Source: Sulfurimonas sp.
GTDB taxonomy: Bacteria; Campylobacterota; Campylobacteria; Campylobacterales; Sulfurimonadaceae
Assembly (NCBI GenBank): GCA_021157485.1
Contig: JAGGWO010000235.1
Location: forward strand, 1-10,670
Direction of reading: 5' to 3'
DNA length: 10,670 bases
Positions 3,043 to 6,588 of this stretch are shown here, one piece after another. The number at the start of each line of letters is the position of its first letter. Positions within the stretch are counted from its first letter, which is position 1. Below the pieces are notes generated by a model. It was not told the origin of the DNA and ran no database searches. It worked only from the letters and a program-made list of their open reading frames with translations. Made by a program: the position numbers and the translations under genes.

Positions 3043-3330
3043 ATGGACATCTCATCATCTGCAAACGAAGTTACAATCACTGGAAATATCAAAAGTGTTA
3101 ATGACTTTCAATCTATCAAGTCAACAATTGATTCAATTAAAGACTCAACTTCAACAATAACTATTGATATCCAAGACTCTATCTCAATTACATCTTCTGT
3201 AATTGGTTATCTTAATAAACTTGTACTCAAAGATTCTATTGATTTAAACATGAAAGTTGGTAATAAGCAATTGATGCTTCTTCTTGAAGACTTAAACCTA
3301 ACTGGCACATTTAAAGCTAAGAGGAGATAA
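3043..3330 (+). CDS. Small STAS-domain protein, probable anti-sigma-antagonist-like phosphoprotein
   Basis: This soluble 95-residue protein is made up of one STAS domain, the fold of SpoIIAA and RsbV. In partner switching such proteins are phosphorylated on a Ser/Thr by an RsbW-type kinase and dephosphorylated by a PP2C phosphatase, and both activities are encoded two genes downstream. The pattern is a hydrophobic strand (ITIDIQ, 39-44), then [12 protein letters not shown] (49-60), then [17 protein letters not shown] (72-88). It aligns with the SpoIIAA region DSSGLG: Ser52 takes the phosphoacceptor place and Gly55 matches, but the Asp is Thr50 and the first Gly is Val53. The assignment rests on these patterns and on the context. 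AAGG at 3032-3035 is the ribosome site. The stop is 2 bases before the receptor gene. Its downstream target is unknown; no sigma factor is encoded nearby. Confidence 0.75.
3321..3326 (+). promoter_or_regulatory. Strong ribosome-binding site (GAGGAG) of the chemoreceptor gene
   Basis: GAGGAG ends 6 bases before the ATG at 3333 and lies inside the last codons of the STAS gene (encoding the terminal Arg-Arg). It fixes the start of the receptor and couples the two genes. Confidence 0.8.
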
Positions 3331-3332
3331 TT

Positions 3333-5309
3333 ATGACAATCAAAAGTAAATTAAATCTTGTAAATGTATTAGTGGTTGTGTTCTCACTTATCATTATACT
3401 TCTAACTATATTTAAAGCTTCATCTGAGAGAACAATTATTACCCAAGCTAAAGAACTAAATATACTCTCTATAAAACTTAGTCTCCTAATCCATGAAACG
3501 CAAAAAGAGAGAGGTGCAAGTGCAGGTTTTCTTGGATCTAAAGGAACAAAATTTACAGAAATTCTTCCAAAGCAAAGAGTTCTTACAACTGCAAAAAACA
3601 GTGAACTTACAGCCTATATTAATACTCTTGATTTAAGTTCATTTCCTCAAACATTACAACAAGAGATTTCCGCATTTAAAGCTGATATGAGTAAAGTTGA
3701 TACTATTAGAGGCAAGGTTGACTCTTTAAGCATTAGTGTTAAAGATGAAGTAACTTACTATACTAAAATGAATGCGAAAATATTAAGAATCGTATCACTT
3801 ACTGCAAAACTTGCTGACACGCAAGAACTGGTTAAATCACTCGATGCCTATACTAACTTCTTAAAGTCTAAAGAAAGAGCCGGGATAGAGAGAGCAGTTC
3901 TAAGTGGAACATTTGCCGCTGATAAATTTGGTAACGGTATGTTTGCAAAACTTATTACTCTTATTGCTGAGCAAAATGCTTACATGGACTCATTTTTAAG
4001 TATGGCTACAGAGGAATCTAAAACATTTTACAAGACTAAAATGAACTCACCGGTTGTTGATGAAGTTAACAGTATGAGAAACACTGCTATTACTAAAGCT
4101 GCCGAGGGTGGCTTTGGTATAGATAGTGTCCACTGGTTTAAAACAATCACTAAAAAAATTAACCTTTTAAAAGCTGTTGATGATGAACTTGCAACCCAAA
4201 ATACACAATTACTCAAAGAAGTTGAGAGTACATCTAAAACAAGTGCGATAATCTCTATCTCTGGTTTTGCTACTTTTGCTATTTTTCTTACAAGTGTACT
4301 AATCTTTGTTAGTAGAGGGATTAACAAAAATGTAAGTAAAACTCTAGAAAACATCAAACATGTATCTAGCAAACTTGATTTAACTCATCAGGTTAGAGTT
4401 GAAGGTCGTGATGAAATTGCACACATTGCTGGAGCTTTACAAGATATGGTAGATGCATTTAGAAATACGGTGGACAATGCGCAGGCAGTATCTTCAGCAA
4501 CTTCTCAAGAGAGTCAAGTCCTGAATGGCGTTGTAATAGAACTCGCAACTAATGGTGAAATAGCAGATGCAAGGATTAAAGATATCAATATCCTTGTTTC
4601 TGAAGTTGGAGAGAGACTTGATGATGTTGAGAATGCTTCAATTACTGTTTCAGAAGATTTAGATAATACATTTAATGTTTTAGATGGTTTTGTAACTAAA
4701 CTTAGTTCTGTTGTTGCAGATATTGAAGATGGTAGCCAGCGTCAAGAAGAGTTAGTTGTAAAAGTCTCTTCACTTACAGAACAGGCTAAAAACATTAAAG
4801 ATGTTCTCTCTATCATCTCAGATATTGCCGACCAAACAAACTTACTCGCACTTAATGCAGCTATTGAAGCAGCTCGTGCCGGTGAGCATGGACGTGGTTT
4901 TGCTGTTGTTGCTGATGAGGTTAGAAAACTAGCAGAGAGAACTCAAAAATCTCTTAGTGAGATTAGCGCAAACGTCAATCTTATCACTCAAAATGTTGTT
5001 GAAATATCTGAAGAGACAGACCAAACTTCACTAAGTATGCACAGTATATCTGATTCAGCGCAAGAGCTTATAGTCTCTTCTGAGGAGACGAAAGAGAACC
5101 TTTTAGGTACTACTGAGCAATCAAAAGATGTAATGAATCAGAGTATTTACATCGCGACAAAAACGAAGGAGCTTATCTCTCATATGGATGAGGTTATTGT
5201 AATTTCAGAGAAAAATGTTTCACACAGAGAGAATGTAGAAAATGTTTCAAATTCATTAACAGATGATGCTCAGAAATTAAAAGCTGAACTTTCAAAATTT
5301 ACAATATAA
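3333..5309 (+). CDS. Methyl-accepting chemotaxis protein with periplasmic NIT domain
   Basis: This inner-membrane chemoreceptor has 658 residues. A transmembrane helix lies at about 7-28 and a second at about 303-326. The periplasmic part between them (about 275 residues) matches the NIT (nitrate/nitrite-sensing) family: [18 protein letters not shown] at 54-71 and [20 protein letters not shown] at 180-199. A HAMP domain follows (about 330-383), then a long coiled-coil signalling domain whose tip, [19 protein letters not shown] (500-518), is the canonical CheA/CheW contact, followed by [18 protein letters not shown] (520-537). The tip is intact, so it should be able to couple to CheA. There is no C-terminal CheR-docking pentapeptide. 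The ligand is predicted by family only; NIT proteins do not all sense nitrate. It sits between a STAS gene and a phosphatase/kinase gene, so it may feed partner switching as well as, or instead of, the flagellar switch. Confidence 0.92.
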
Positions 5310-5325
5310 ATAGATAGATACGAAT

Positions 5326-6588
5326 ATGCCAGAGAAAGCCAAAAAATTCAAAGAGCTTCAAGAGAAGCATGAATATAACTCATATCAAGAAGATTTAGCT
5401 TTTGCAAAAGAGTTAAATATTCTTAGAAATGACTTTTATTATCAGATGATTGACTCCAAACACATCTCTTTAGTTGATTTTTTATATCAGCCTTTAGATT
5501 TGATTAGTGGTGATGCTTATACAGCGCGTCGTATTGACAATCATAGAACTTTTTATCTTATTGTTGATGGAATGGGTAAAGGCTTATCTGCCTCTTTGAC
5601 TGCAATGATTATGACTACATTTATCAATCACATTATTGATAAGATGATTGAGCATGATAGTTTCTCTCTGGATATACTTATAAAAGAATCTATGGCTTAT
5701 ATGAAGCCTATTCTTCTAGATGAAGAAGCTGTTGCAGTTGATTATATACTTTTTGATTCTGCTTATGACACACTCTCATATGCTAAATTTGCTATGCCAG
5801 CATCTCTCATGCAAGATAAAGAGCATAATGTTATAAAAATTAAATCAAATAATTCTCCTATGTCTAAGTATCAGAGAGATTATAAAATAGATGAATACAA
5901 TATAAAAGATATAGAAAAATTTCTATTTTTTAGTGACGGTATAGTAGAAAATATGACATCTGATGGTGTCACTCCTTATGAAAATTACATAGAGGATGAC
6001 TTCAAACGCAGCTTTACAAGAGAAGATTTAAAAACAAAGTTTTTCAGTAAAATTGATGAAGCAGAAGATGATATTACACTGATTTTTATAAATCGTATAC
6101 CTTTTGAAATAGCCACGAGCTGTGAAAAAAACTTTAATTCTACTTTAGATAATGTTGAACGTGCAAATGAGTGGTATGAAGAACTATGGAATGAATATAG
6201 CGATAATACACATATAGCATATCAAGCCGGTGTGGTATTTACTGAACTCTATATGAATGCTTATGAGCATGGAAATTTAGGGATAGATTCTAAAACAAAA
6301 CATATGCTTATTGACAATGATACATACTTTGAAACTTTAAAAGCTACAGAGATAAAATGTACTAAAAAAATAAACGTAAAAGTAAGTGTATTAAAATGTA
6401 AACATACTACCTACATTATCACTCAAATCACAGATGAGGGTGAAGGTTTTGACACACAAATACTCAGTGAAATTTTTAGAAACGCTAAAACATTTAATGG
6501 TCGTGGCGTTTTTGTCTCACGCAGTAACTCTTTAGGAATCTACTATAACTCCAAGGGCACAAGCGTTCTCTATTTACATAAAATTTAA
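5326..6588 (+). CDS. Fused PP2C/SpoIIE-type phosphatase and RsbW-type Ser/Thr kinase
   Basis: This is a cytoplasmic partner-switching enzyme of 420 residues with both opposing activities in one chain. A short charged helix (about 1-45), probably a coiled coil, precedes the PP2C_SIG/SpoIIE domain (about 46-260): LISGDAY with Asp63, DGMGKG (81-86), FFSDGIVE (201-208) and EDDITLIF (247-254), which carry the expected metal-binding aspartates. A GHKL ATPase domain of the HATPase_c_2 (RsbW/SpoIIAB) type follows (about 275-420): N-box ELYMNAYEHG (307-316) with Glu307 and Asn311, G1 box DEGEGFD (370-376) and G2 box NGRGVF (391-396). Both halves look catalytically complete. The natural substrate is the STAS protein at 3043. 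There is no receiver domain, unlike the fused regulators CrsR and HsbR of gammaproteobacteria, so the input must come from a partner, plausibly the receptor encoded 16 bases upstream. No clear Shine-Dalgarno is seen, which suggests coupling. Confidence 0.87.
   Translation: MPEKAKKFKELQEKHEYNSYQEDLAFAKELNILRNDFYYQMIDSKHISLVDFLYQPLDLISGDAYTARRIDNHRTFYLIVDGMGKGLSASLTAMIMTTFINHIIDKMIEHDSFSLDILIKESMAYMKPILLDEEAVAVDYILFDSAYDTLSYAKFAMPASLMQDKEHNVIKIKSNNSPMSKYQRDYKIDEYNIKDIEKFLFFSDGIVENMTSDGVTPYENYIEDDFKRSFTREDLKTKFFSKIDEAEDDITLIFINRIPFEIATSCEKNFNSTLDNVERANEWYEELWNEYSDNTHIAYQAGVVFTELYMNAYEHGNLGIDSKTKHMLIDNDTYFETLKATEIKCTKKINVKVSVLKCKHTTYIITQITDEGEGFDTQILSEIFRNAKTFNGRGVFVSRSNSLGIYYNSKGTSVLYLHKI

Follow-up and report, generated by a model that had tools for sequence, protein, structure and literature searches.

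The window analysed here is a 10,670-nucleotide stretch that forms an entire contig (C240) of a Sulfurimonas sp. genome (G000; 1.79 Mb, 80% complete). It carries three intact open reading frames on the forward (+) strand, encoding a STAS-fold switch protein (95 residues; positions 3043..3330), a NIT-HAMP-type methyl-accepting chemotaxis protein (MCP; 658 residues; 3333..5309), and a fusion of a PP2C phosphatase with an RsbW-like kinase (420 residues; 5326..6588). The intergenic gaps are 2 and 16 bases, and the triplet is probably an operon, judging from this spacing. The end of rarA is located 44 bases upstream of the triplet and the start of a malic enzyme gene 50 bases downstream. The triplet is a real, conserved, and selected unit. 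We tentatively read it as a CrsR/HsbR-type partner-switching module functionally tied to an array-class chemoreceptor, an interpretation that falls just short of probable.

Pfam detects no domain in the 95-residue protein. Its structure model (predicted local distance difference test score, 94.7) has a STAS fold, and the best matches among solved structures are anti-sigma factor antagonists, the protein being similar to RsbV, SpoIIAA, and HsbA. Asp21, Ser51, Gly55, Leu77, and Leu86 are invariant in 41 aligned sequences. Ser51 (codon 3193..3195, +), the predicted phosphorylated serine, opens helix 51–62 in the model and is aligned with the serine of the DST motif in RsbV, which we take to be the RsbV phosphosite. 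Position 51 is serine in all 100 STAS sequences from the loci (140 stretches) fetched around enzyme and NIT matches, and in 121 of 121 sequences comprising the window protein and the best 120 of 449 database relatives. The protein thus has both the STAS fold and the conserved phosphorylatable serine of a partner-switching module. Its gene is in the cluster of the enzyme, as in the CrsR/HsbR family, with the MCP gene between the two in the window.

In the fusion enzyme, the PP2C domain of the SpoIIE/RsbU type (5443..6096, +) retains the metal-binding acidic residues, Asp63, Asp81, Asp204, Asp248, and Asp249 being invariant in 45 aligned enzyme proteins. The RsbW-like GHKL kinase domain (6109..6585, +) retains its nucleotide boxes; Glu307, Asn311, Glu314, His315, Asp370, Gly374, Gly392, and Gly394 are invariant in the same alignment, and Gly372 is conserved in at least 90%. 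The model of the enzyme matches SiaA, RssB, SpoIIE, Rv1364c, and the kinase domain of Leptospira LvrC (9qih), so that both domains have fold matches among proteins with other inputs and targets. The name "SenB" was rejected for 9qih: none of the papers listed in the literature searches concerned it, and the structure listing gives LvrC of Leptospira. The N-terminal helix (5329..5421, +; residues 2–32 in the model) is aligned with the linker between the receiver and PP2C domains of the orthologues. The receiver domain itself is absent, and the 16 bases between the MCP stop codon and the enzyme start codon leave no room for it. The window enzyme is therefore not the chain of receiver, PP2C, and kinase that characterizes CrsR and HsbR.

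The receptor has two hydrophobic, transmembrane-like segments, a HAMP match just below the Pfam cut-off, and a coiled coil with a CheA/CheW receptor tip (4812..4952, +), as is expected of an array-forming MCP. The source genome provides a CheA match (G000:C219, near a contig end) and four open reading frames with CheW domains. Exactly 129 residues follow the tip in four of the seven tip-bearing receptors of this genome, the window receptor included. The NIT sensor domain (3486..4199, +; Pfam E value 2.4e-61) is predicted to be periplasmic from the topology and is related over its whole length to that of NasR (4akk; profile E value 6e-20), a soluble antiterminator, unlike the window protein. 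Glu175 and Arg176 of NasR are the predicted nitrate pocket in the available text of the source (PMC7496416). They are aligned with Glu186 and Arg187 of the receptor, which are invariant and conserved in at least 90%, respectively, of 16 receptors. Nitrate or nitrite is thus a plausible ligand on the basis of this alignment. The original prediction of three co-oriented genes for a STAS protein, a NIT-MCP with an intact tip, and a receiver-less PP2C-RsbW-type fusion is borne out by the reading frames, models, profiles, and invariant sites described above.

The same genes recur together in the genus. The enzyme search gives matches in 111 of 199 genomes, some by the PP2C half only. The NIT-MCP of the triplet is found in 69 of 120 genus genomes, and 68 of these also have the PP2C-kinase, without correction for relatedness; conservation beyond one strain, which the original prediction had set as a check, therefore holds. 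In these counts, an enzyme was called at a best E value below 1e-70, with G040, G050, G052, and G070 added from fragments, and a receptor at about 335 bits or more, with G001, G064, G076, and G109 added from partial or gapped matches. Receptor matches below about 200 bits lie outside the counts, and small receptor fragments may be missed. The genus triplet adjoins rarA wherever the locus reaches that far, mostly in the order STAS-MCP-enzyme; the order is MCP-STAS-enzyme at L033, L046, L050, and L053, and MCP-enzyme-STAS in family f23 and in L092 of f7. Across the group there are four order variants (STAS-MCP-PP2C, MCP-STAS-PP2C, MCP-PP2C-STAS, and PP2C-STAS-MCP). In receiver-less pairs, purifying selection acts on each of the three genes, with nonsynonymous to synonymous rate ratios of 0.05–0.23 where computable.

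The linkage also extends to other families and other receptors. A co-oriented MCP gene is found within three genes of the enzyme gene at one or more loci in six of 11 families (f1, 59/75; f23, 4/4; f16, 3/3; f17, 2/4; f7, 1/2; f2, 1/1), and at none in f5 (0/2), f13 (0/2), f19 (0/1), f20 (0/3), and f21 (0/1). MCP genes account for 72 of 536 near genes versus 4 of 633 farther ones, and outside f1 for 11 of 127 versus 3 of 134 (p = 0.027); the L099 receptor, which ends at a contig edge, was not scored as an MCP in these neighbourhood counts. A receptor of another type comes directly after the enzyme-STAS pair in f16, f17 (L098), and a Sulfuricurvum record (L210). A PAS gene lies between the pair and the receptor in f2, and in f19 the pair is followed by a gene that encodes a receptor-type sensor with HAMP and is truncated at a contig edge. 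The linked receptors are accordingly of the NIT type, a 390-residue type, a 464-residue type with a weak CZB match, a 481-residue MCP accompanied by the PAS gene, and a 530-residue HAMP type (Sulfuricurvum record). On the NIT tree, the state changes between linked and free at least six times (68 of 110 rows, the genus being thinned to one in four, and rows with fewer than 180 aligned residues, L106, and L234 being omitted).

Several observations weigh against the reading of a functional tie. The enzyme is present without a NIT-MCP in 13 of 81 enzyme-bearing genus genomes, some of these cases arising from contig ends, and without an adjacent receptor in f5, f13, f20, and f21. Conversely, NIT-MCPs without the module occur in other families. 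STAS and enzyme genes have no adjoining receptor at nine genus loci, two of which, L036 and L041 (G099 and G002), have neither a receiver nor an adjacent receptor. The enzyme is apart from both partners at L127 and L035, and at L228 (G109) an MCP gene lies between rarA and maeB with neither STAS nor enzyme. Mirror-tree partial correlations within the triplet (0.16–0.49; 35 loci) do not exceed those with rarA, rsuA, and kpsF (0.06–0.50). The tip of the window receptor is an ordinary one, resembling the tips of the other receptors in the source genome. The kinase half gives a weak Pfam match, and a genome search with the kinase family missed the window enzyme. One of the five outgroup rows, L092, lacks the receiver.

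Some rearranged loci should also be described. At L229, L230, and L231, the STAS and MCP genes remain beside rarA and the PP2C-kinase is encoded elsewhere (L127, L035, and L131; G105, G069, and G094). Two of these three relocated enzymes have a receiver with Ala in place of the phosphorylatable Asp, and one has no receiver. In G182 (family f4; L240:546-2808), a STAS gene directly precedes a NIT-MCP gene, and the enzyme search gives no match at an E value of 0.001. The receptor gene of G109 contains an assembly gap with a repeated stretch.

The linkage of an MCP with a partner switch is itself already known from Shewanella mcpA/crsR/crsA and from F7 clusters, as far as the available parts of the sources describe them. 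In the che1 cluster of Shewanella oneidensis, two MCPs, CrsR, and CrsA form one transcription unit (PMC9855816), so that an MCP, a regulator combining a phosphatase and an anti-sigma kinase, and a STAS-type antagonist are cotranscribed. The described che1 locus is, however, a full che cluster with CheA1 and has RpoS as a target, whereas the window triplet has no adjacent che genes and its enzyme has probably lost the receiver. In stage 1-2 F7 clusters of gamma- and beta-proteobacteria, an mcpA-like receptor, an anti-sigma factor antagonist, and a serine phosphatase are described as adjacent and as moving together (PMC7184735). These lie within a che cluster, whereas the Campylobacterota loci are free-standing, near rarA in the genus or flhB in f23. 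HsbR of Pseudomonas aeruginosa, like the window enzyme, combines a PP2C and a kinase for a STAS-type protein, HsbA (Ser56), with FlgM/FliA and HsbD as the outputs; in contrast, its receiver is loaded by HptB, and the available text names no receptor gene of the module (PMC6482189). As far as the parts show, the Campylobacterota triplet would work like the che1 and HsbR systems, except that the window enzyme lacks the receiver, one of the features that define the CrsR/HsbR family. Among the literature matches listed, no paper describing the triplet in Campylobacterota was recognized from titles and the starts of abstracts.

The distribution of the receiver bears on how the receptor could act. 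Pfam finds a receiver in 27 of the 45 aligned enzymes, the window enzyme being among the 45, and one is present at 43 of 70 genus loci of known state; L148, a relative with 68% identity, also has it. At L151 of S. indica NW8N, by contrast, the gene order is that of the window and the enzyme, of 419 residues, has no receiver. Four of the five outgroup rows and the deepest genus rows have the receiver. The window form is therefore most simply explained by loss, and the window enzyme is best regarded as a CrsR/HsbR-type enzyme that has lost its receiver. On a quick tree of 76 enzymes, in which 17 of 73 inner branches are weak, at least 11 changes of receiver state are counted. In the genus, 34 loci have both receiver and receptor, eight the receiver only, 24 the receptor only (window included), and three neither; L081, L082, L055, L071, and L131, with receiver or receptor state unknown, are outside this table, and L106 was omitted by name. 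The phosphorylatable Asp is kept in 56 of 62 receiver sequences from the genus and other families, and is replaced by Ala in five and Glu in one. Among rows of known state, 34 of the 39 whose enzyme has a working receiver also have an adjacent receptor, as do 27 of the 31 without such a receiver, and the two traits are unrelated on the tree. This equal retention indicates that the receiver alone is not the reason for the linkage. The recurrence of the sensor-switch pairing in relatives, even after receiver loss, suggests a joint function. The original prediction that the receptor replaces the receiver as the input holds as to the conserved linkage and the missing receiver; the takeover upon receiver loss is not supported, as neither the table nor the tree shows an association that compensation would give. 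Another explanation for the receiver pattern was also rejected. Retention only alongside a second CheA was hinted at by raw counts, and independent tree pairs give a null result (seven pairs, median p = 1). At L212, the one locus inspected for a nearby stand-in for the lost receiver, the neighbouring receiver gene encodes a DNA-binding response regulator.

No target gene for the switch is present in the operon. All seven genomes examined contain only two sigma-70-type factors (open frames of 623–663 and 230–237 residues). An RpoS-like factor, the target of CrsR, was not found in these seven, of which G000 is 80% complete, leaving zero candidates for a stress sigma factor as the output. FlgM is found in six of the seven, the exception being G000 with its completeness of 80%. 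Control of motility or of cyclic diguanosine monophosphate (c-di-GMP) is thus likelier as the output than a stress sigma factor. In f23 (L084–L087), the NIT-MCP, enzyme, and STAS genes are followed by an FlhB-family gene (assigned by Pfam for L084, and by size and sequence start for L087), which hints at flagellar control. At L097 (G120), the cluster includes a c-di-GMP enzyme: a GGDEF-EAL gene extends into the beginning of the PP2C-kinase gene, and STAS, PAS, and MCP genes come next.

We propose the following scheme for the tied module. The C-terminal GHKL domain would phosphorylate the STAS protein at Ser51 and the PP2C domain would dephosphorylate it; the STAS protein would swap its partner depending on whether it carries the phosphate. 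For most relatives, CheA of the array or a different histidine kinase could load the receiver. Since the window enzyme has no receiver, the NIT receptor could influence it or the STAS protein only by a receiver-independent link; such a link is possible, and our guess for the route is contact with the array via either the STAS protein or the linker helix that is left. The output would most likely be flagellar or biofilm control through FlgM/FliA or a c-di-GMP enzyme. In a stricter form of this scheme, the receptor array directly controls the kinase/phosphatase switch by the PP2C-kinase linker or STAS contact, bypassing phosphotransfer from CheA to the receiver. We consider this form unlikely; it would explain why the receiver was repeatedly deleted or disarmed while the receptor stayed.

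The shared operon may instead mean coexpression only, the receptor serving the flagellar CheA array like any MCP and a motility-related switch taking other inputs, with both required under the same condition. McpA of Shewanella, encoded with CrsR and CrsA, indeed clusters with CheA3 in the available account (PMC9855816). The window receptor has a tip, and a length after the tip, as in three other MCPs of its genome, and the module persists without a receptor at the nine genus loci. Unlike receptor types are nevertheless repeatedly linked to the same pair, and the co-occurrence in 68 of 69 genomes also speaks against mere coexpression, though neither point is decisive or corrected for relatedness. 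We regard this explanation as somewhat doubtful.

A classical relay from the receptor through CheA to the enzyme receiver would be broken in the window strain, leaving the module free of receptor control. The largely intact receiver Asp is consistent with such a relay, as is the precedent of Shewanella che1, which so far as described has a CheA1 of its own (PMC9855816). CheA is undetected in seven of 120 genus genomes, only one of which has the enzyme (G071, 70% complete, enzyme split into two). The enzyme is thus missing in 6 of 7 CheA-less versus 33 of 113 CheA-bearing genomes (Fisher p = 0.005, relatedness uncorrected); five of the six lacking both have FlhA, and the six may represent few independent events. 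However, the receptor is retained alike with and without a working receiver, and receiver presence does not track the number of cheA genes after correction for relatedness. We rate the relay as rather improbable. The direction might also be reversed, the STAS protein being set by the enzyme and acting on the chemoreceptor or the array. The STAS genes left beside the MCP after enzyme relocation and the STAS-MCP pair of G182 would fit this arrangement, but at loci without the MCP the STAS gene is found with the enzyme gene, and neither in f23 nor at L092 (f7) is it adjacent to the MCP. We rate a reversed direction as quite improbable. The functional tie of the partner switch to the chemoreceptor remains the interpretation that we favour.

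The window triplet lies outside any che cluster. The gene order is kpsF-type, rsuA-type, rarA, STAS, NIT-MCP, PP2C-kinase, maeB-type, mqnA-type (reverse strand), moaD, moaE, and moeA, under names that we presume from the domains and, for moaE, from position alone. An Rfam scan of the window gives zero matches. Promoter-like sites show no excess (14 versus a shuffle mean of 18.1); terminator-like sites number four versus a mean of 1.3, and neither gap in the triplet has one. Elsewhere in the source genome (G000:C237; L110:3175-7195), a second SpoIIE-type phosphatase with a receiver-PAS-PP2C arrangement, in which no kinase domain is seen, adjoins a receiver-PAS protein and an NMT1-type binding protein.

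The usual view is that chemoreceptors signal through CheA. Signalling of a chemoreceptor through serine phosphorylation is plausible here. If a receptor does control such a switch, whether via CheA or around it, two worlds of signalling would be connected. In this respect Sulfurimonas is a natural experiment, because relatives with or without the receiver, and with or without the receptor, carry the module at the same genomic place. Deletion and comparison of individual parts can therefore address the question.

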